This document shows positions 12,351-61,951 of a stretch of DNA of 64,000 bases, piece after piece; the first letter of the stretch is position 1; every line of letters begins with the position of its first letter. Under the pieces are notes generated by a model. It saw only the letters and a list, made by a program, of their open reading frames with translations, made no database searches and was not told the origin of the DNA. The stretch spans positions 1,543,501-1,607,500 of the forward strand of contig NZ_CP040098.1 of NCBI RefSeq assembly GCF_005377625.1, given 5' to 3'. Origin of the DNA: Desulfoglaeba alkanexedens ALDC. GTDB lineage: Bacteria; Desulfobacterota; Syntrophobacteria; Syntrophobacterales; DSM-9756. Made by a program: the position numbers and the translations under genes.

Positions 12351-12735
12351 CTTCATTGATCTCCGGCTCTCCCGCCTCATGTTCCTTGATGCCGCCATAC
12401 ACACCTTCCTGGATCTCGACCTTCATTGATCTCCGGCTCTCCCGTCTCATGTTCCACCTTGTTCCCAAGCTCCAGCTTGGGAACACAACTGTGCAGAAGC
12501 TCCAGCTTCGATTCCCATGAGGCCGTTCCCAAGCCAGAGCTTGGGAACGAGGGGAATTCTATTTCCCCTCCCCTTGTGGGAGGGGATTAAGGGGAGGGGA
12601 ATGTAACTGATTGACATACGTTAATTTTTTCACCCTCACCCCAACCCTCTCCCATCAAGGGAGAGGGGGATTTTTTGACCTTGTTCCCAAGCTGTACCTT
12701 CCACCTTGTTCCCAAGCTCCAGCTTGGGAACGAGG
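12351..12735. repeat. Repeat block: direct repeat, palindromes and double-hairpin element
   Basis: A 34-bp direct repeat (cttcattgatctccggctct...) occurs at about 12,351 and 12,420. Three 24-nt palindromes of the GTTCCCAAGC/GCTTGGGAAC family follow (12,461-12,484; 12,525-12,548; 12,708-12,731). Between them, 12,555-12,679 carries two strong GC hairpins (CCCCTCCCCTTGTGGGAGGGG and a CCCTCTCCC/GGGAGAGGG pair). This last 125-bp unit occurs again, inverted, at 52,005-52,129. I see no gene in 12,224-12,981. Confidence 0.85.
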
Positions 12736-16858: not shown

Positions 16859-17473
<615 letters not shown>

Positions 17474-17486
<13 letters not shown>

Positions 17487-18895
17487 TTCCCCCCGGCGGC
17501 GTCTCCGAGCAGCCGTCTCCGGGACCGTCGGGCCTTTTCTTTCAGGGCTTCCAGATCTTCCAGGGAAAAATCAGGACGGCGGACCGCAAAAAAGCTGTTG
17601 TTGTGGGTGAGGGGTTCCGTTTCGACAGGGTAGGGGCTTTCGGCCACGGCTTGGCGCCACATGGGTGTCCCGGGGATGGGGGAATACTCGGCCAGGTAGG
17701 GGCAGGCGCCTTCGGCTTCCACTGTTTCGATGGCTTCTGCCACCTCGGAAGGCTTCTGCCCGGGAAGTCCGCACAAGAGATAGGCGCCGATTTCCCTCGC
17801 GGTGAACCCCGAAGCACGGAGGTTTTTAACCGCTTCGCGAAACATGGTCTCTTCCACCTTGCCGCCCCACTCGCGTTGCCTCTCCGGCCGCGTGGTTTCC
17901 AGTCCCAGCCGCAGCGTCCGAAAGCCGGCTGCGGCGAGCAAGTCGCACCATTGGGCGGAAAGTTGCCGCACATGCAGCGCGTTGGGAGTGTGGAACCGAA
18001 GGCCGGGCAGTTCCCGGGCGACCCGTTTCAGCGCAGGTTTCAACGAGTCTTCGGCGTCGATGAGAAGCGCGTCGTCGTAAAAGGCGAAGTCCGCCACGCC
18101 GTAGAGCTGGTGCCAGCCGGCGATTTCACCGAAGACGGCGTCGGCGGATCGTCTTTCTCGGCGGGGTTGAAGGAGGCCGGAAGCACAATACGGGCACCGG
18201 TACGGGCAGCCGGTTCCGGTGAGAATCGGCGCGTACCTGAGTCTCCCGAGCAGGTCCAGGGCGGGTACCGGTGCCTTTGCCAGGATTTCCCATGCCGGTC
18301 GGTTTCGAACCGAAAACCCCGTGGCCGCTTTCAGGACCTCGGGCAGTTCCACCTGAGTTCCCGTATAGACCGCCGTCGCGCCGGTCCATCGCCTGGCGTG
18401 CTCGGGGCACAGTCGCGCGTACGTGCCTCCCAGCCACACGGGGACTTCCGGCCATACCCGGCGCAGAAGACCGACGGCCAGTTGCACGCCGGGGTACCAG
18501 TAGGTCATGGAGCAGGTCATCCAGACCATGTCCGGTTCCGGCGTTTCGGCCAATCGCCTTAAGCAGCTCTCGGGGTGAATCCCGTAACGATAATAGTTCC
18601 TTGGAATGTCCTGGATCGCATCGGGCTTCGCCATGGGAGCCCGGGGGTATTTTCCGGTCCCGTACGCGCGATCCTTTCCGGGCATGATTTCGGGATGGCG
18701 GTTGGTGAACGGATCGTCCCGGTCGAGGCAGTCGATAAAGCCCACACCGCAGCCCCCCTGGCGCAGCAGCGCCGCGAGAACCAGAAGCCCCAAGGGCTTG
18801 GCCCAAAGGTCGAAGGCGGCGAAGTCGGTGATCCAGGGGTTGACCAGGAGAACAAAGGGCGGCTTCGGCATGGTCTCGTCGGTTCCCTCGTACAT
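17474..18895 (-). CDS. B12-binding-domain radical SAM protein
   Basis: An N-terminal cobalamin-binding-like domain ([42 protein letters not shown]) precedes a radical SAM core with the cluster motif CPYRCPYC (CX3CX2C, about residue 235) and [21 protein letters not shown] and LLCGLPGQ. This architecture occurs in methyltransferases and ring-forming enzymes; the substrate is unknown. Starts at 18895 or 18871 are both plausible; an upstream extension lacks homologous features. The final residues and stop (KHKR-TAA) come from the end of repeat element B. It is divergent from dtd. Confidence 0.85.
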
Positions 18896-27203: not shown

Positions 27204-27312
27204 GGCTTCCACCTTGTTCCCAAGCTCCAGCTTGGGAACACAGCTGTGGAGAAGCTCCAGCTTCGATTCCCATGAGGCCGTTCCCAAGCCAGAGCTTGGG
27301 AACGAGGGGACC
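27204..27312. repeat. Palindromic repeat module
   Basis: Two 24-nt palindromes of the GTTCCCAAGC/GCTTGGGAAC family (27,216-27,239 and 27,280-27,303) flank agaagctccagcttcgattc. The whole 109 bp is nearly identical to 12,450-12,555. The spacer 27,094-27,535 otherwise contains no gene; a gcgggagcgccgctccc hairpin lies near 27,395. Confidence 0.85.
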
Positions 27313-37224: not shown

Positions 37225-37359
37225 TCACCATCCCATCCAGCGGCAAAGCACCCGCTCCTTCAAGAACTCGATCCGAGCCCGGTTGCGGGCATCCACATCG
37301 AGAACCAACGCCTTGAGTTCCTTGGCGGTATCGGGAAGTGCGGTCGCCTTCAAAACCAT
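37225..37359 (-). pseudogene. IS66 TnpC N-terminal fragment
   Basis: A 44-residue frame reads VLKATALPDTAKELKALVLD then VDARNRARIEFLKERV and stops. This matches the N-terminal leucine-zipper-like start of IS66-type TnpC transposases, by recollection of the family. It points opposite to the IS66 remnant at 41,033-41,732, so the two bracket the low-GC segment between them. Confidence 0.55.
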
Positions 37360-37603
37360 GGATGCACACTACCACGAAAGGCGCTCTTTGTATATGGATT
37401 CGAGCGATGACAGCTCACGGTAAACCGGTTCCCACAGTCGACGGCCCGCAAAAAGATGGGGTTCGCTGATCCACGGTGTTTTTCAAGATAGTTGTCATAC
37501 GAAGTCATGCCGCCCGGGTTGATGTTGCCGTGCGTTGGCATCAGTTGTTTGCTTTTTCCACAAGCCAATCCAATCGTCCCTTGACCGACAAGGAGGTAAA
37601 TGC

Positions 37604-37747
37604 ATGGAAAAGAACATAGGTACTTCAATCAATAAGATTTCTAGTGTCACGTACCAAGAAAAAACGTCAGAGTACTGGCGGTTCACCCCAGTTCCGCCCA
37701 ATGAGTCCGTGATTTCGCTTTTCGCGGAAGACGATAGGCCATATTAA
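37604..37747 (+). CDS. Possible small ORF, 47 residues
   Basis: ATG at 37604 has a full AAGGAGG seven bases upstream. The product starts MEKNIGTSINKISSVTYQEK and continues TSEYWRFTPVPPNE. Its last third lies antisense to the 3' end of the radical SAM gene. I do not recognise it; it may be the truncated start of a gene cut when the accessory segment arrived. The rest of 37,360-37,603 shows nothing. Confidence 0.3.
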   Translation: MEKNIGTSINKISSVTYQEKTSEYWRFTPVPPNESVISLFAEDDRPY

Positions 37748-40070
37748 AAACAACATAATAGGGCAGAACACGAAGGGGCAAATTCTGATGCCGAAATCTG
37801 CTGAGCATGTTTCTGATACTAAAGAATTCCTGGTTGAATTTGTCGTATTCCTTTTCCAATTGATCGGCTGTCATGCGCTCGGGCTGGACGATCACACTAT
37901 AGCCTGTGTAGCACTTATAATCACGATTCAATAACCGTCCCTCATTTGTAATTTGCCTGTGAAAGGCCGTGCCCGGGTATGGAATGACAAGATTGGGCGC
38001 AAGGGAAGTAATATCGCTGGTATTGAAAAACTCCAGAGTCTGCGTAAAAACTTCAGGACCATCGCCGTTAAGCCCAAAGATCAGGCCGCCACCGACCAAT
38101 ATCCCATGCCGGGTTAAAGTCGATATTTGTTCCTTGTATTTTTCTGTATGGTTAAAGGACTTATCGACGGATTTCAGACTTGCCGAATTGATGCTTTCCA
38201 ACCCAACGAAGACGCCCTTGCAGCCGGCCTCCGCAGCCAGGCGCACCAGTTCTTCGTCTTCGGCGGACCTCAACTCCATCTGCATCCATAATTTTTTCTT
38301 CAAGGGGACTAAGGCGGCGAACAGTTCCTTTGCATACTTGCGGTCAGCGCAGAGGTTATCATCCATAAAGAAAATATGACGGCTGTCAGCACGCGCCACA
38401 TCGGCTGCCACCTCGTCAATGGGACGTTTACGATAGGTCGGGTGAATATATCGATTGAAGCAGTAGGAGCAACAATTGGGACATCCTCGGGTGGCTTCCA
38501 CCGGGTAGATCGGTAGATAAAGTCCGTGCAGTAAGTCAAGACGAGGCGGTGCTAAATTGCGCAGATCCGGCGGCTCCGCATTACGATAAACTCTTTTCAA
38601 CGAACCAAGTTCTGCGTCTTTCAGTAAACTTTCCCATGCTCCGCCCTCGGCCTCGCCGATAAGGACAGCATCGAAATGTTCGAGAACCTCTTCGGGAACA
38701 GCGGTGGCGTGGGTTCCTCCCGCCACGGTTAATAGGCCGGTCTTCTTAGCCTTTTTGACAATCTCGTAAGCCATTGGAGCGTTATTGGTCGAGAAGGTGA
38801 TTCCCACCAAGTCAAACATACCTGAAGGGATCTCGATCTTCTCCACCCGACCATCGATGATCCGCACGTTGTGCTTGCCCGGAGTCGCTCCGGCCACTCG
38901 CGGCAGGGTGAGGGTTCTGAATTTGGTGAACGGCAAGGCGCGGGGTTGCGCATCAATCAGCAAAATATTCAGAGAACGCCCGCCGAGCTTCGGCCCGGGA
39001 CGGCTGGAAACCTTTTCTACGTTGAGCAAATAGCCATTGTTTATAACGCGATATGAAGGAAAACGGGACGTTTCGTTCGGGAGCCACTCCTTGCGCCTGC
39101 CCACGCAAAACAGCACCATCGGCGCCAGGTAGTCGCGCCACGAACAATAGATATCCGTTAAACACACCACCCAGGACTCGGGATATCGCGGGGGCCTCAG
39201 GGTTAAAGGCCACATGTGTTTCTTGATGATGTCTTCCTCCTTGGCGGAGAGGGGGGTAATCTGGCGTGCGTTTTGTAGGGCAATGAGAGGGTGTCTGATG
39301 CCGTGCCATCGTGGGCCTTCCCGGAGCCAGTCGTAATAAAAAAGATCATGTAAAAGAGCGCCTTTGACTACGGCCTCGGAGTCCAATGATAAACACTGGG
39401 ATATCCGAAATGCCTTCCAGGAAACGTCCAGGACGTGGTCAAGGCGGGATTTACCTAAATGGTGGTTAAAATCCTTTAACTTGATAACGCCCGGATGTTC
39501 AAGCAGCGGCCGCGCAATCTGAATAAATCTCCATCGAGCTGTATCCTGATCCGCCAGCCCGCTGCGTTCACTCATCCTCCTGCGCATAACCACGATAAAA
39601 TCTATAAGCATTGCCAGCCCTATCGAGCCAAGAACAACGTCAATAAGGAAATCGAATCGTTCATAAACATGTAATGCCCAGGGAATAAGCAAATCGAGAG
39701 CAATATCAAGCCCGGTCGCCAGCAACATCCAATAAATCGAAAAGCGAAGACAAGCGTGCCCTCGGATGTTGAACCGGTTGTCTCTATAATCCCAAAGACG
39801 TACATGAAGAATCTTTTCTATGGCTGCTCCCGTGATTAATTCGAGAACCGACAAAGAAATGAGATAAAAAAGGGAGCGGATGGGCAGGCTGTATGTATCA
39901 AGGATAACATGACCCCCTAAAACGAAGAGGGCTCCGAAGCCGTAAATTGGCAGGTAGAAGCCCTTCAGCAAACCAGGGTTGATCATTCGACGGTTTTTCA
40001 CCGAACGGAAAACCGCTTCCAGCATCCACCCCACAATAGAAAAAACAACGAAATAATTTAAATAAAACAC
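37683..40070 (-). CDS. Membrane (CmpB/DUF1113-like) - HD domain - B12-binding radical SAM fusion protein
   Basis: One 795-residue frame with three parts. Residues 1-175: four to five membrane helices of the putative ABC-transporter-type family (SIVGWMLEAVFRSVKNRRMINPGLLKGFYLPIYGFG). Residues about 190-330: an HD phosphohydrolase-like region (HHLGKSRLDHVLDVSW, GALLHDLFYYD, KKHMWPLT). Residues about 350-795: a cobalamin-binding domain and radical SAM core with CPNCCSYC, FFMDDNLCADRKYAKEL and LIFGLNGDG. GTG at 40070 with AAGGA upstream is the only start after an in-frame stop. GC content is visibly lower than in the flanks. Substrate unknown; likely membrane-associated. Confidence 0.82.
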   Translation of the reverse strand: MFYLNYFVVFSIVGWMLEAVFRSVKNRRMINPGLLKGFYLPIYGFGALFVLGGHVILDTYSLPIRSLFYLISLSVLELITGAAIEKILHVRLWDYRDNRFNIRGHACLRFSIYWMLLATGLDIALDLLIPWALHVYERFDFLIDVVLGSIGLAMLIDFIVVMRRRMSERSGLADQDTARWRFIQIARPLLEHPGVIKLKDFNHHLGKSRLDHVLDVSWKAFRISQCLSLDSEAVVKGALLHDLFYYDWLREGPRWHGIRHPLIALQNARQITPLSAKEEDIIKKHMWPLTLRPPRYPESWVVCLTDIYCSWRDYLAPMVLFCVGRRKEWLPNETSRFPSYRVINNGYLLNVEKVSSRPGPKLGGRSLNILLIDAQPRALPFTKFRTLTLPRVAGATPGKHNVRIIDGRVEKIEIPSGMFDLVGITFSTNNAPMAYEIVKKAKKTGLLTVAGGTHATAVPEEVLEHFDAVLIGEAEGGAWESLLKDAELGSLKRVYRNAEPPDLRNLAPPRLDLLHGLYLPIYPVEATRGCPNCCSYCFNRYIHPTYRKRPIDEVAADVARADSRHIFFMDDNLCADRKYAKELFAALVPLKKKLWMQMELRSAEDEELVRLAAEAGCKGVFVGLESINSASLKSVDKSFNHTEKYKEQISTLTRHGILVGGGLIFGLNGDGPEVFTQTLEFFNTSDITSLAPNLVIPYPGTAFHRQITNEGRLLNRDYKCYTGYSVIVQPERMTADQLEKEYDKFNQEFFSIRNMLSRFRHQNLPLRVLPYYVVFNMAYRLPRKAKSRTHWAELG

Positions 40071-40096
40071 TTAGTGATCCTTTCTGCCGCATCCCA

Positions 40097-40127
40097 CAAA
40101 TGACCAAAATGGTCGTGTGGTCATTTG
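40097..40127. promoter_or_regulatory. TetR operator region upstream of the fusion gene
   Basis: A perfect 10-bp inverted repeat CAAATGACCA ... TGGTCATTTG spans the site, with a nested GACCA-AAA-TGGTC palindrome in its left half (40,102-40,114). It lies in the 70-bp gap between the TetR gene and the fusion gene. The same AAATGACCACA string occurs upstream of the TetR gene itself, which points to one regulator binding both places. Confidence 0.65.
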
Positions 40128-40140
40128 CAGGTAAAAAAAA

Positions 40141-40740
40141 TTACTCCCTTGCGTTACGGAGCTCAAGGCCATGAAAAAGAATTTGAAGGAGATCGTCTAT
40201 CTCAGCGATTGCTCCCTCTAACTCCATTTCCAGAGTCCATCCAAATTCAAGCCCGTTAATTGCCGCCGCGATTGCTTTTGCTGTAGCAGGGATATTTATT
40301 GCCTGGAGAGCTGAGTTGTTCACCCCCTCTTCCAGAATCTCCTTAATGAGGTTCAACTCCTGTTTGGCGATCTCGGCCCGCTCTTTCTCTATAAAAGGTA
40401 GTAGATCCTCCGCCCGCTGGCGGTTGATCTCGTATAAGAAGCTCAAATTTTTATAATATTTGATCTTGGCAATGATCATCTCCCTTACCTTTAATTGTGC
40501 AGTCTTCTGGTCCCGCATCGCCTCACGCATTTTGACAATCATGATCTTGCCCTCTCGCTGCAAAATAGTTCGGTAAATTTCCTCCTTGCTTCGGAAATAA
40601 TTGTAGATCGTGCCTTTTGCTACCCGCGCCTTTTTGGCGATGTCATCCACCGCAGTCTTCTTAAAACCAAAGCGGGCAAACAATTCTTTCGATGCAGCGA
40701 GTATGCTCTCACGGAAGGTATTCCGCTTTTTTGTCCCCAT
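40141..40740 (-). CDS. TetR-family transcriptional regulator
   Basis: The HTH is typical: RESILAASKELFARFGFKKTAVDDIAKKARVAKGTIYNYFRSKEEIY. A helical ligand domain without obvious assignment follows (199 residues). It lies 70 bases upstream of the three-part radical SAM gene, in the same direction, so the two probably form a small regulon. Lysine- and isoleucine-rich codon use fits the lower GC of this segment and possible horizontal origin. Confidence 0.88.
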   Translation of the reverse strand: MGTKKRNTFRESILAASKELFARFGFKKTAVDDIAKKARVAKGTIYNYFRSKEEIYRTILQREGKIMIVKMREAMRDQKTAQLKVREMIIAKIKYYKNLSFLYEINRQRAEDLLPFIEKERAEIAKQELNLIKEILEEGVNNSALQAINIPATAKAIAAAINGLEFGWTLEMELEGAIAEIDDLLQILFHGLELRNARE

Positions 40741-40757
40741 AGCTCAAATCCTTTAGG

Positions 40758-40768
40758 AAATGACCACA
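40758..40768. promoter_or_regulatory. Operator half-site upstream of tetR
   Basis: AAATGACCACA, identical to one arm of the 40,097-40,127 inverted repeat, sits 18 bases before the TetR start. A second arm is not evident here, so this may be a weaker or half site for autoregulation. Confidence 0.45.
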
Positions 40769-41032
40769 AATCGAATCTAGTTCATTAGGCCAAAATTGTC
40801 AAAGCTTCCTTGTAACTTTTGTCGCAATCCCCGATGGCCACTTCAAAACCCCACCTGTGGCCGTCAGTCCGATAAGAATCAGATATGAAGTGTCAATTTC
40901 CTCCACAGGTTGCGCTGGCGGTGCCAGTGGGCGACGGCGGTGATGGGGCGGACATCCTTCTTACGGATTGGATCACGCCCTTTGACCGTCCGGGGCAGGA
41001 AGGGAATCGCTTCAGCGAAGGTTTTGGTTAGA

Positions 41033-41732
41033 GTACCTGAGCCGCTGGGAGGCGAGCGGGCTCACTCAGATCGAGATCCACCAAGACTTCGATCCTTGCG
41101 TGCTGAATCGGCTCATCCGGGTGTTGATGCAGCTATGATGGCTTCGCCCATAACCCCACGCGTGTTCCTCGCTCCGGGAAGGACCGACATGCGCAAGGCC
41201 ATCAATGGCTTGTCGGTGTTGGTGGAGGGACATCTGGAGTTGGACCCGTTTTCCGGGCATTGGTTCGTTTTCTGCAACCGAGCCCGCACCATAATCAAGA
41301 TTCTGTACTGGGGGGCAACGGATTTTGTCTTTGGCAGAAGCGTTTGGAGAAGGAGCGCTTTCACTCAAGATCCAGGTCATTCGCCACATCCGCATCAAGT
41401 ATGCGTGCAAAAGCTGCGAGGGAATAGAAAGCGGAGAGCCGGTGGAGCATGGCCACATTACGCCCGACAACAATGCCGCGGAAAATGCCATTCGCACCTT
41501 CGTCGTCGGCAGGAAGAACCGGCTCTTCACGGGTCACCCCAATGGGGCTCACGCCGGCGCCACCTTATCCACTCTGATCGAAACGGCCAAGGCTTGCGGG
41601 CTTGAACCCTACGCCTACCTGCGCTTCCTGTTTACAAAGATCCCTCATGCCCAAACCGATGAGCAATACGCGGCCCTGCTCCCCCAGAAACTTGCCCCCG
41701 AGCAGCTGGCGCTCGCCGATCCTTACGTGTAG
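41033..41732 (+). pseudogene. IS66-family element remnant (tnpA-tnpB-tnpC, broken)
   Basis: Three decayed genes are in order. A tnpA remnant (EYLSRWEASGLTQIEIHQDFDPCVLNRLIRVL), tnpB from about 41,136 (ITPRVFLAPGRTDMRKAINGLSVL, LDPFSGHWFVFCNRARTIIKILYW, then frameshift), and tnpC joined across a large deletion (IQVIRHIRIKYACKSCEG next to GHITPDNNAAENAIRTFVVGRKN, ending EPYAYLRFLFTKIPHAQT). The element is non-functional and lies directly between the TetR segment and ureD. The spacer 40,769-41,032 shows no gene. Confidence 0.85.
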
Positions 41733-41803: not shown

Positions 41804-42670
41804 TCAGAGCAGCCTTACAACCCTGTGAAGAAAGCTGTTATCCTCGATCGCCGGCAGGTTTTTCCTTATAAATCCTATTAGTTGAAAGAGAGGCTTCTGT
41901 ACGGAGGGGATGTTCGCTCCGAGGATTCTTGCGGTAAGAGCGCTTGCGGAGAGGGCGCTTAAGCCGCCGACTGCAGCCTTGTCCTGAAACAGGTCTCTCA
42001 TGCCTTCCAAGAAGGATTTCGACAGGCCGGGACCTCCGTGTACCAGACAGAGGAGCGCTGAGACGGTGTATGATTCCATCCTGCCAAGGGCCGAGTAATC
42101 TTCGTCCTGGGGCCGAAGCAGAAATCTATCGAAAACGATCGGCTTCCCTCCGTAAATGACCATGGTTGAACTGTCGTATTCCTCGAAGGCAAGGTTTTCT
42201 CCACGGCTGATCCGCCCTGTCGAGAACCAATCGAGAGAAAGGCACGTCGATCCTTCTTCCATGTGTATTGTCGTCCTTTGCCTGAACCGGGAGCCTGCAA
42301 AGGGGATCACGTATGAGGGGATATACTCGAGTATCGCCCCGTCGGCGATATGTATATGAGTTGTCTGCTCGGCACGGTTCGGGCCGGTTTTAAGGATTTT
42401 TGTGGCGGAAGGCGCGGTGATGAATGCATGGGCATGAGGCTGGAGTAATATATCGATCTCCACCCGGTCCCCGGCCAGATAGCCCGGCGTGGGGTTAACG
42501 ACGTAGGTGTAGGCACAGCCGCCGTCATCCGAGTAGAAGGGCGGAAAGGCGCAAAAGGGCATTCGGGAGAACGATTCGGCAAGAACCGTCTTTTTCCCTT
42601 CCTTTTTGAAAACCAGGCGGAGGTTGGGGGTGTCGTGCGGGATGTCAGGTACGGGTGAGAAAAAGGACAT
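41804..42670 (-). CDS. ureD: Urease accessory protein UreD
   Basis: UreD (288 residues) binds apo-urease and, with UreF and UreG, opens the active site for nickel insertion. Family features include [34 protein letters not shown] and [20 protein letters not shown]. It is the last gene of the operon, overlapping ureG by 26 bases. Position at the operon end is less usual than ureD first. IS66 debris begins about 70 bases downstream. Confidence 0.88.
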
Positions 42671-51896: not shown

Positions 51897-52004
51897 TTTA
51901 AAGACCTCCTTGATCAGATTGATTTCCCGCCTTCTCCGGGGAAATGAGGTTAAAATATTCGTAGGGTTCTAAAGTGGAGACCGTAAGCAAAAAGGTTAAC
52001 GAAT

Positions 52005-52129
52005 GTCAAAAAATCCCCCTCTCCCTTGATGGGAGAGGGTTGGGGTGAGGGTGAGAAAATCAATGTATGTCAATCAGTTACATTCCCCTCCCCTTAATCC
52101 CCTCCCACAAGGGGAGGGGAAATAGAATT
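52005..52129. repeat. Double-hairpin repeat, inverted copy
   Basis: Nearly identical to the reverse complement of 12,555-12,679. It contains two GC-rich hairpins (CCCTCTCCC/GGGAGAGGG and CCCCTCCCC/GGGGAGGGG types). It sits between urtA and the ammonium-transporter remnant, so it may mark a recombination boundary. Beyond the remnant, 52,380-52,820 shows no supported gene. Confidence 0.85.
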
Positions 52130-52189
52130 TGGCATCAAATATTAGGTCTATTATTTTCTACGCTACCAAAATATTTTGTTGAACTTGTT

Positions 52190-53886: not shown

Positions 53887-54762
53887 TTATTGGGTCCCTA
53901 CATATACAGGTCGGAACATCTCTTCGCCCATTTGGAGGGCGCTTTCAATAGTCCTGAGCATCCTGTGCTGGTCTTGGGGCATTTTGCCGTGGACATCCAC
54001 ATAATTGGTGTAGTGATCACTGACCACCTGAGAGGTGACGTCCAGATTCCGAATGATCTCCGCTGATTCGCGGAGGGCTTCGTGAGGACTGAGCACCTGG
54101 AATCGGCCGCTTCGGATCTGGTGGAGGAGAAGCGTATTGATCTTGGGGAGAAATGTCCGGATACGGATAAAATCGGGATTGATGGCATTCAGGGCCTTCG
54201 CCGTGAGCAGGGCGTGCTCCCGACTCCTCTCCCTTCCGCCGATGCCGATCATGACATACTCGCTCAGCTCGATTCCCGCCGCCATCACCCATTGCCCCGC
54301 CTCGATCTGCTCTTGGGCCGTAGTCCCTTTCTTGATCCGTCGAAGAACGACATCATCTCCGCTTTCAAGGCCCACATGGATGCGGGTCAAACCAGCCTGT
54401 TTGAGTTTGATCAGATCAGACAATCCTTTGCGATGAATGTATTGCGAGGAGCCGTATACGGTGATGCGTTCAAGATGCGGGAAAAGCGCGTGAGCATGGA
54501 TGCAGATGGCGGCCAGATCTTCCGTGGGCATGGCAATGGTGTTGCCTGCCGGGAAGAAGATACTCCTGATCCCACCGCCATAATCGCGTCGAGCCTCCTC
54601 GAGATCAGCCTTAATATCAGACACCGGACGCACTTTATATGGCGGACCCTTCTTGTAGACCATGCAGAAGGTGCACTTGTTGTGCGGACAACCTACGGTA
54701 GCTTGGATCAGCAGGCTGTCTGCCTCGCTTGGAGGGCGGTATATCGGGCCTTCATAGTGCAT
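53887..54762 (-). CDS. Radical SAM protein with CX4CX2C cluster motif
   Basis: The 291-residue protein has the cluster motif ATVGCPHNKCTFC (CX4CX2C), an AdoMet-binding region (SIFFPAGNTIAMPTEDL, ITVYGSSQYI) and LTRIHVGLESGDDVVLRRI. It resembles a widespread family of uncharacterised radical SAM proteins with the GCxHNxCxFC motif. ATG at 54762 (MHYEGPIYRPPSEADSLLIQ) starts the conserved part; the longer frame from 54810 lacks support. It is monocistronic. Confidence 0.82.
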   Translation of the reverse strand: MHYEGPIYRPPSEADSLLIQATVGCPHNKCTFCMVYKKGPPYKVRPVSDIKADLEEARRDYGGGIRSIFFPAGNTIAMPTEDLAAICIHAHALFPHLERITVYGSSQYIHRKGLSDLIKLKQAGLTRIHVGLESGDDVVLRRIKKGTTAQEQIEAGQWVMAAGIELSEYVMIGIGGRERSREHALLTAKALNAINPDFIRIRTFLPKINTLLLHQIRSGRFQVLSPHEALRESAEIIRNLDVTSQVVSDHYTNYVDVHGKMPQDQHRMLRTIESALQMGEEMFRPVYVGTQ

Positions 54763-61679: not shown

Positions 61680-61951
61680 CAGATGGCCTTGAAGCAGCAA
61701 GCGCATCAGCTGCGCTTCCCCTAGTTCCCAAGCTCCAGCTTGGGAACGCCCTGCCCGGGAAGCTCCAGCTTCCCTCGTACTACAGCTGAAACGCGCTGTC
61801 TTTCTAGGGAGCTCGCCAGGATCTCGAAGTGGTTTTTCCCGTCGTTCCCAAGCTCTGGCTTGGGAACGGCCTCACCGAAGCTGGAGCTTCTGCACAGTTG
61901 TGTTCCCAAGCTGGAGCTTGGGAACAAGAAGCAAAAGATCTGCACCCATCG
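61680..61951. repeat. 270-bp repeat module with three palindromes
   Basis: Direct copy of the module at 1,471-1,742 with few differences. The palindromes are at 61,724-61,747, 61,844-61,867 and 61,902-61,925. Here it occurs without the GAACATY arrays. The remaining spacer 61,952-62,493 shows no confident gene, only a short plus-strand frame with a signal-like stretch (62,270-62,475). Confidence 0.9.

Follow-up and report, generated by a model that had tools for sequence, protein, structure and literature searches.

The window analysed here, a 64,000-nucleotide stretch of Desulfoglaeba alkanexedens ALDC (positions 1,543,501-1,607,500 of a 3.37-Mb genome assembled as a single contig), contains a compact unit of two minus-strand genes: a TetR-family regulator and, 70 bp downstream of it, a gene that encodes a fusion of a CmpB membrane domain, an HD phosphohydrolase-type domain and a radical S-adenosylmethionine (SAM) enzyme with a B12-type fold. 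Each of the three domains belongs to a known superfamily and, as far as we could find, their combination is undescribed. The initial annotation of the window had read this region as an accessory module with a TetR regulator of its own, bracketed by IS66 fragments, and had guessed that it modifies a lipid or other hydrophobic substrate.

The fusion gene is open throughout, with a GTG start and 795 residues, and its Pfam and fold matches and invariant residues bear out the single three-domain frame described initially (Table 1). The CmpB profile matches residues 6-160 (E = 1.6e-31) and, in an AlphaFold2 model of residues 1-345 built from 42 sequences (mean predicted local distance difference test (pLDDT) score of 89), this part forms five long helices (2-26, 39-56, 62-88, 108-138 and 140-169). 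Arg and Lys abound in the loops between helices 1 and 2 and between helices 3 and 4 and in the segment following helix 5, suggesting that the HD and radical SAM parts probably face the cytosol. No solved fold appeared as a match to the CmpB part, which the structure searches barely covered. The HD profile matches residues 209-247 with a score (0.0074) under the Pfam cut-off, whereas the HD domain of a homologue from Desulfosarcina cetonica (L050) scores over it. Residues 177-321 of the model adopt the HD fold (closest to 2pq7; VIA Z 11.5, 130 residues, root mean squared deviation (r.m.s.d.) 2.8), and the metal-type residues H212, H241, D242, H256, H260, H285 and D306 are all invariant across 42 CmpB-HD homologues; this part thus has both the H...HD...D metal-binding residues and the fold that define the superfamily.

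The second half of the fusion combines an N-terminal B12-type fold with a CX3CX2C core, placing it in the B12-fold radical SAM superfamily (class B type). The B12-binding profile matches above its cut-off at residues 400-476 (E = 1.9e-10) and the Radical_SAM profile at residues 525-681 (E = 9.9e-16), and the cysteines C530, C534 and C537 are invariant in 34 aligned homologues. The aligned B12 fold contains no DxHxxG motif, and any use of cobalamin by the fusion is putative. The closest solved fold to residues 364-757 is that of AprD4 (6fd2; VIA Z 31.7, 381 residues, r.m.s.d. 2.6), followed by MgmA, CysS, TsrM and OxsB (Z 25-27, the best of these 26.7). In a search of the NCBIfam radical SAM subfamilies, lipid enzymes made up three of the six best matches, all far short of their equivalog cut-offs (HpnJ, 85.8 bits against 577.6; HpnR, 61.2 against 650; the ladderane-type family TIGR04072, 54.3 against 360). 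Pfam found neither of the PlsA/Ger domains PF01869 and PF09989 in the fusion. A model of the full-length protein (pLDDT 86, predicted template-modelling score 0.58) has a linker at residues 352-363 with pLDDT below 50, and the relative placement of the modelled domains is uncertain. Two further radical SAM matches in the window, at ~17,639-18,430 and ~54,304-54,708 (minus strand), are distantly like the fusion (E ~1e-6 and 7e-4).

Table 1 Features of the TetR-fusion unit and its right-hand border (window positions)
Feature	Position	Strand	Basis
Transferred unit, block common to L044 (UBA2174)	37,681-40,814		DNA alignment, unrelated flanks
Three-domain fusion gene (CmpB, HD hydrolase, B12-fold radical SAM)	37,683-40,070	-	Open frame, Pfam/NCBIfam, full-length fused homologues, dN/dS
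CmpB membrane part (PF06541), residues 1-169	39,564-40,070	-	Pfam and AlphaFold2 model
HD phosphohydrolase-fold domain, residues 175-322	39,105-39,548	-	Invariant residues and fold match
B12-binding-type Rossmann fold, residues 366-505	38,556-38,975	-	PF02310 and alignment
Radical SAM core, residues 518-757, C530-X3-C534-X2-C537	37,800-38,519	-	PF04055, alignment and fold match
Candidate operator, TetR/fusion gap, AAATGACCA-N11-TGGTCATTT	40,098-40,126		Perfect inverted repeat
TetR-family regulator, 199 residues, first gene of the unit	40,141-40,740	-	PF00440 (TetR_N), E 6e-16
TetR-gene promoter, TTGACA-N17-TAGATT	40,758-40,802	-	Sole sigma-70-like match in the region
Strongly degraded IS66 remnant: part of TnpB, followed by TnpC lacking its middle	~41,013-41,690	+	PF05717, PF13817, PF03050

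The initial annotation had suggested looking for the same architecture elsewhere. Among 84,980 species genomes, a search requiring matches to carry one of two short peptide patterns recovered fused homologues of full or near-full length and 59-92% identity in other Deltaproteobacteria-type genomes, ruling out both an assembly join or frame artefact within the gene and the possibility that homologues always lack the membrane or HD part. The fusion is 92% identical in the Desulfobacteraceae genome UBA2174 (L044), 63% in L045 (the same as G158/L031), 62% in L049 and 59% in L046, where the frame breaks close to its end; that of L047 begins inside the HD domain at a contig edge, and L048 (3,179-5,397) carries an apparently damaged copy in which the TetR gene is frame-shifted and most of CmpB-HD is gone while the radical SAM half is intact. 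Because these few fusions headed the match list, the three-domain form appears to be rare, being present in about six genomes whose labels are all Desulfobacteraceae or Deltaproteobacteria. When the window is compared with L044, the ratio of nonsynonymous to synonymous substitution rates (dN/dS) is 0.25 for the fusion, below 0.5 in each of its domains and 0.18-0.47 across all parts of the unit, indicating purifying selection. In a tree of the CmpB-HD part, a single clade (99/97) unites the fusions with L050; the latter, which has a Ger-like neighbour (see below) and no radical SAM part, is the nearest branch to the fusion in the window (94/80).

A check for the domains as neighbouring separate genes elsewhere had also been suggested. 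In Ruminococcus-type genomes (L108:8,001-8,808; L109), an HD match is followed by a CmpB match, apparently in separate and adjacent genes, supporting a functional link between these two domains; no such arrangement was seen for the radical SAM part in the loci examined, as discussed below. Stand-alone radical SAM relatives (32-40% identity) are present in 120 of 297 genomes sampled from the phylum and point to no specific function. A longer CmpB-X-HD form of ~400-430 residues, with additional sequence separating the two domains and without a Ger-like neighbour in the locus, occurs in Syntrophaceae and in one Spirochaetes metagenome-assembled genome (L084, L095-L097, L104, L117, L118 and L121).

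The regulator upstream of the fusion, whose presence the annotation had reported correctly, is 94% identical to its counterpart in L044 and 63% to that in L050, with a dN/dS of 0.23 against L044; most of the fused homologues stand directly behind a TetR gene, although those upstream of the L045, L046 and L049 fusions are of more distant types (nearest ~31-34%). The motif said to precede both genes is indeed there: AAATGACCA occurs at 40,098(+), 40,118(-) and 40,758(+), the first two copies forming the perfect inverted repeat in the intergenic gap. Written at full length, this candidate operator is CAAATGACCA-N11-TGGTCATTTG, a perfect 10-bp inverted repeat with arms of 11 bp in L044, and it is the only such repeat in the window, where 0.02 would be expected at a tolerance of up to 3 mismatches. 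The third copy is a half-site (AAATGACCA/TGGTCATTT) just downstream of the -10 element of the TetR promoter, a layout kept in L044 and L050 with AGTCA-type half-sites; an additional copy of AAATGACCA at 42,154 is probably due to chance. The natural reading of these sites is that the regulator would repress its own gene and co-control the fusion. Induction by a small ligand, as supposed in the initial annotation, is conjectural.

The unit as a whole is shared with UBA2174. Over 3,136 alignment columns, it is 93.75% identical in DNA to L044, and the similarity stops at the ends of the block, which coincide with the fusion stop codon on one side and fall just upstream of the TetR promoter on the other. 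By comparison, GlnRS identity between the two genomes is only 69%, and ABC-transporter genes on the L044 contig match the genome of the window at 69% DNA identity, which argues that this contig does not come from a close relative. The ~94% identity against 69% for GlnRS, together with the differing flanks, indicates that the unit moved horizontally, in agreement with its description as an accessory module; either the transfer between lineages is recent or the binning of the L044 contig is wrong. The flanks of the L044 copy were not found intact in the genome of the window, and the flanks of the window copy, apart from IS66 pieces and a match of 51 bp, were not found in UBA2174. The low guanine-cytosine (GC) content remarked on initially was also recovered, at 0.50 for the fusion (0.56 at third codon positions, GC3) and 0.47 for the TetR gene against 0.54-0.63 (GC3 0.64-0.77) for the flanking genes.

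Of the two inverted IS66 fragments proposed as borders, the right-hand one stood. Its TnpB and TnpC pieces are colinear with a fuller IS66 in L197 (50-64% amino acid identity), and it adjoins the unit while falling outside the block common to L044. The left-hand one (~37,225-37,361) found no support: as a conceptual stretch of 64 residues, it matched nothing in Pfam or NCBIfam, and a plasmid search with its first 48 residues was negative. A search of the genome of the window found no intact IS66, only the right-hand remnant and one other TnpC remnant. The UBA2174 copy of the unit has short dispersed repeats, also present in the genome of the window, ~35 bp away on either side (L044 7,052-7,221 and 10,427-10,545). 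The genome of the window contains a family of short dispersed repeats in many copies of ~100-250 bp, the longer matches being 88-98% alike, with copies in the window at ~1,419-1,733, 12,452-12,731, 17,179-17,301, 27,207-27,310, 51,950-52,172 and 61,682-61,940. A second block, G000:C1:2,569,383-2,572,175 (L207, L208), is 94-95% DNA-identical to UBA2174 (L044:16,048-18,385) and encodes a pyridoxal-phosphate aminotransferase-family protein read as serine palmitoyltransferase-like, an acyl carrier protein and an epimerase; standing out from the 69% background, it was probably transferred too.

The genes around two-domain CmpB-HD relatives, which lack the radical SAM part and are far commoner than the fusion, provide a lead to function. 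In 40 of the 44 short-form loci (39 by a strict adjacency rule, plus L068, where the two genes overlap), CmpB-HD is directly followed by a PlsA/Ger-superfamily protein of ~1,400-1,500 residues, and a TetR gene lies directly upstream in 18 of the 44, with five more cut by the contig start. The long neighbour, examined in L050, contains two PF01869 (BcrAD_BadFG) domains and PF09989 (DUF2229). PlsA makes vinyl ethers and Ger makes alkyl ethers on expression in E. coli, and the Ger proteins of Thermotogota and Desulfatibacillum alkenivorans validated in this way have two PF01869 domains (PMC13274423, PMC11150832). We call the neighbour Ger-like from its domain arrangement, as a lead and not as proof. 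The subfamily at least 60% identical to it occurs in 8 of the 297 sampled genomes, all eight of which also have CmpB-HD. Genes for DUF6781, a patatin, a UbiB-type kinase and a resistance-nodulation-division (RND) pump recur nearby. The resulting cluster of TetR, CmpB-HD, Ger-like, DUF6781, patatin and UbiB genes, often with an RND pump, is found in many Desulfobacterota-type genomes (examples among L050-L092 are L050:176-7555, L054, L059 and L065; see also L049:6380-15811).

In L049, the genes follow one another as TetR, a presumed membrane-fusion protein, RND pump, TetR, CmpB-HD-radical SAM fusion, DUF6781, UbiB and patatin; the Ger-like gene is missing and the fusion occupies its place in an otherwise same-order cluster. 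The fusion remnant of L048 lies ~2.6 kb from a CmpB-HD/Ger-like cluster. The close Ger-like subfamily is present in two fusion-bearing genomes, L046 and L048, and the genomes of L044, L045, L047, L049 and the window have only distant Ger-like relatives (~27-31%). In a limited literature search, we found no description of the TetR/CmpB-HD/Ger-like cluster or of the three-domain architecture, no work joining an HD domain, a radical SAM enzyme and an ABC permease, and no published function for CmpB (PF06541), which a paper naming the family gives as an untested transporter candidate.

We tentatively propose, with slightly less than even confidence, that the unit is a TetR-repressed, horizontally transferable system for membrane-lipid modification. 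Lipid modification is the best reading because the radical SAM enzyme replaces, or supplements, an ether-lipid-type enzyme in a conserved cluster, and the PlsA/Ger-superfamily, patatin and UbiB genes in the conserved surroundings of its homologues lend independent support to the initial guess. From the computed architecture, conservation, retained catalytic residues, operator, transfer and neighbourhood, we infer a lipid substrate, a ligand, a type of reaction and an order of steps. TetR would bind TGACCA-type operators at its own promoter and ahead of the fusion gene until a membrane-active or lipid-like ligand releases it, allowing the fusion to be expressed. With its five helices, the CmpB part would keep both catalytic domains at the cytosolic side of the membrane: an HD phosphohydrolase with a di-metal centre, and a radical SAM enzyme of B12 fold generating a 5'-deoxyadenosyl radical. 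The latter would take the slot, beside CmpB-HD, of a PlsA/Ger-superfamily enzyme, which carries out radical ester-to-ether lipid reduction, and may alter a glycerolipid or its acyl or alkyl chain by methylation, C-C bond formation or dehydration, with the HD domain stripping the substrate, or a by-product, of a group that contains phosphate.

Several observations weigh against this proposal. No gene next to the unit in the window is a lipid gene, so that the lipid role rests on the neighbours of its homologues, and the substrates of radical SAM domains of the same class extend to antibiotics, peptides, proteins and phosphinates. According to the Ger literature cited above, Ger and PlsA are inseparable by sequence alone, and relatives of their superfamily are widespread (222 of the 297 genomes at E ≤ 1e-60), which is why the name Ger-like is only a lead. 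In none of the 78 loci examined does a stand-alone radical SAM gene lie directly beside CmpB-HD; in L058, a separate one is ~5 kb away with other sequence between. The place of the two-domain L050 inside the fusion clade, moreover, implies that the radical SAM part was lost or exchanged at some point; a single origin with later exchange and two separate events both fit.

Among other explanations, the most plausible, although still on the unlikely side, is a cobalamin-independent, AprD4-like radical dehydratase in which the B12 fold is structural only and water is removed from a hydroxylated lipid or sugar headgroup; its lipid version overlaps with our proposal. AprD4, which is not known to depend on cobalamin, is the clear top fold match (Z 31.7, the next being 26.7), and the missing DxHxxG motif fits such an enzyme, but the true B12 radical SAM enzymes TsrM, OxsB, CysS and MgmA match as well, and many enzymes of this kind likewise lack the motif. 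The fold matches also bear on a signalling unit, with CmpB as a membrane sensor, HD as a (cyclic-)nucleotide phosphodiesterase as in PgpH, and the radical SAM domain acting on a nucleotide- or tRNA-like substrate. PgpH with cyclic di-AMP, YhaM, dNTPases and SAMHD1 are among the HD matches and MiaB is among those of the radical SAM half; however, this fold is common to all HD families and none stands out (Z 9.5-11.5), and the conserved Ger-like, patatin and UbiB neighbours are not nucleotide enzymes, making signalling improbable. We are similarly doubtful of a membrane-stress or efflux accessory, in which a TetR/RND-linked response to solvents or hydrophobic toxicants would have the fusion alter a toxic compound and not a lipid: TetR and AcrB-type pumps do lie near several homologues and radical SAM enzymes of this class do take small-molecule substrates, yet pumps are confined to a subset of the loci, in contrast to the Ger-like gene, which adjoins CmpB-HD in 40 of 44. 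That the unit is a decaying mobile passenger without function, as its recent transfer, low GC content, degraded IS66 neighbour and the apparently damaged L048 copy might suggest, is very improbable given the low dN/dS of both genes, the kept operator and the full-length copies in several genomes.

Returning to the lipid-modification proposal, a more specific version joins its parts: a transferable, self-regulated, membrane-tethered radical SAM enzyme would carry out an undescribed radical-based reaction on lipids of the membrane, such as mid-chain methylation or C-C coupling of acyl or alkyl chains in deltaproteobacterial ether lipids, in one polypeptide with HD-mediated phosphate removal, and the TetR/CmpB-HD cluster would be an unrecognised ether-lipid operon with interchangeable Ger-like and radical SAM catalysts. 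As a whole we consider this speculative and unlikely to hold in every part. Sulfate-reducing and related bacteria contain unusual ether and branched lipids that serve as environmental biomarkers. Which enzymes make them is only partly known, and the CmpB-HD/PlsA-Ger operon and its radical SAM-fused version provide concrete genes to test for such lipids; CmpB would also gain a likely functional setting from the conserved lipid-type cluster.

Among known systems, PgpH-type membrane HD phosphodiesterases likewise pair a membrane part with a cytosolic HD domain, but their membrane domain is a different one and the likeness to the fusion is at the level of the HD fold only. HpnJ, HpnR and the ladderane-type enzymes share the B12-type fold and radical SAM superfamily of the fusion, which scores only 54-86 bits against their cut-offs of 360-650; to our knowledge, none of them has a CmpB or HD part. 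The diol dehydratase AprD4, although the closest in solved fold over residues 364-757, is a soluble antibiotic-pathway enzyme with 20% identity to the fusion, which falls far under the corresponding NCBIfam cut-off. Two-domain CmpB-HD proteins (PF06541 and HD) are 39-60% identical over the CmpB-HD part, have the same catalytic HD residues and often lie behind a TetR gene; they lack the radical SAM part, and we found no member of established function. The fusion has no PlsA/Ger domain and carries a radical SAM domain instead, yet relatives of PlsA and Ger are encoded right after two-domain CmpB-HD, in the very slot that the fusion holds in L049.

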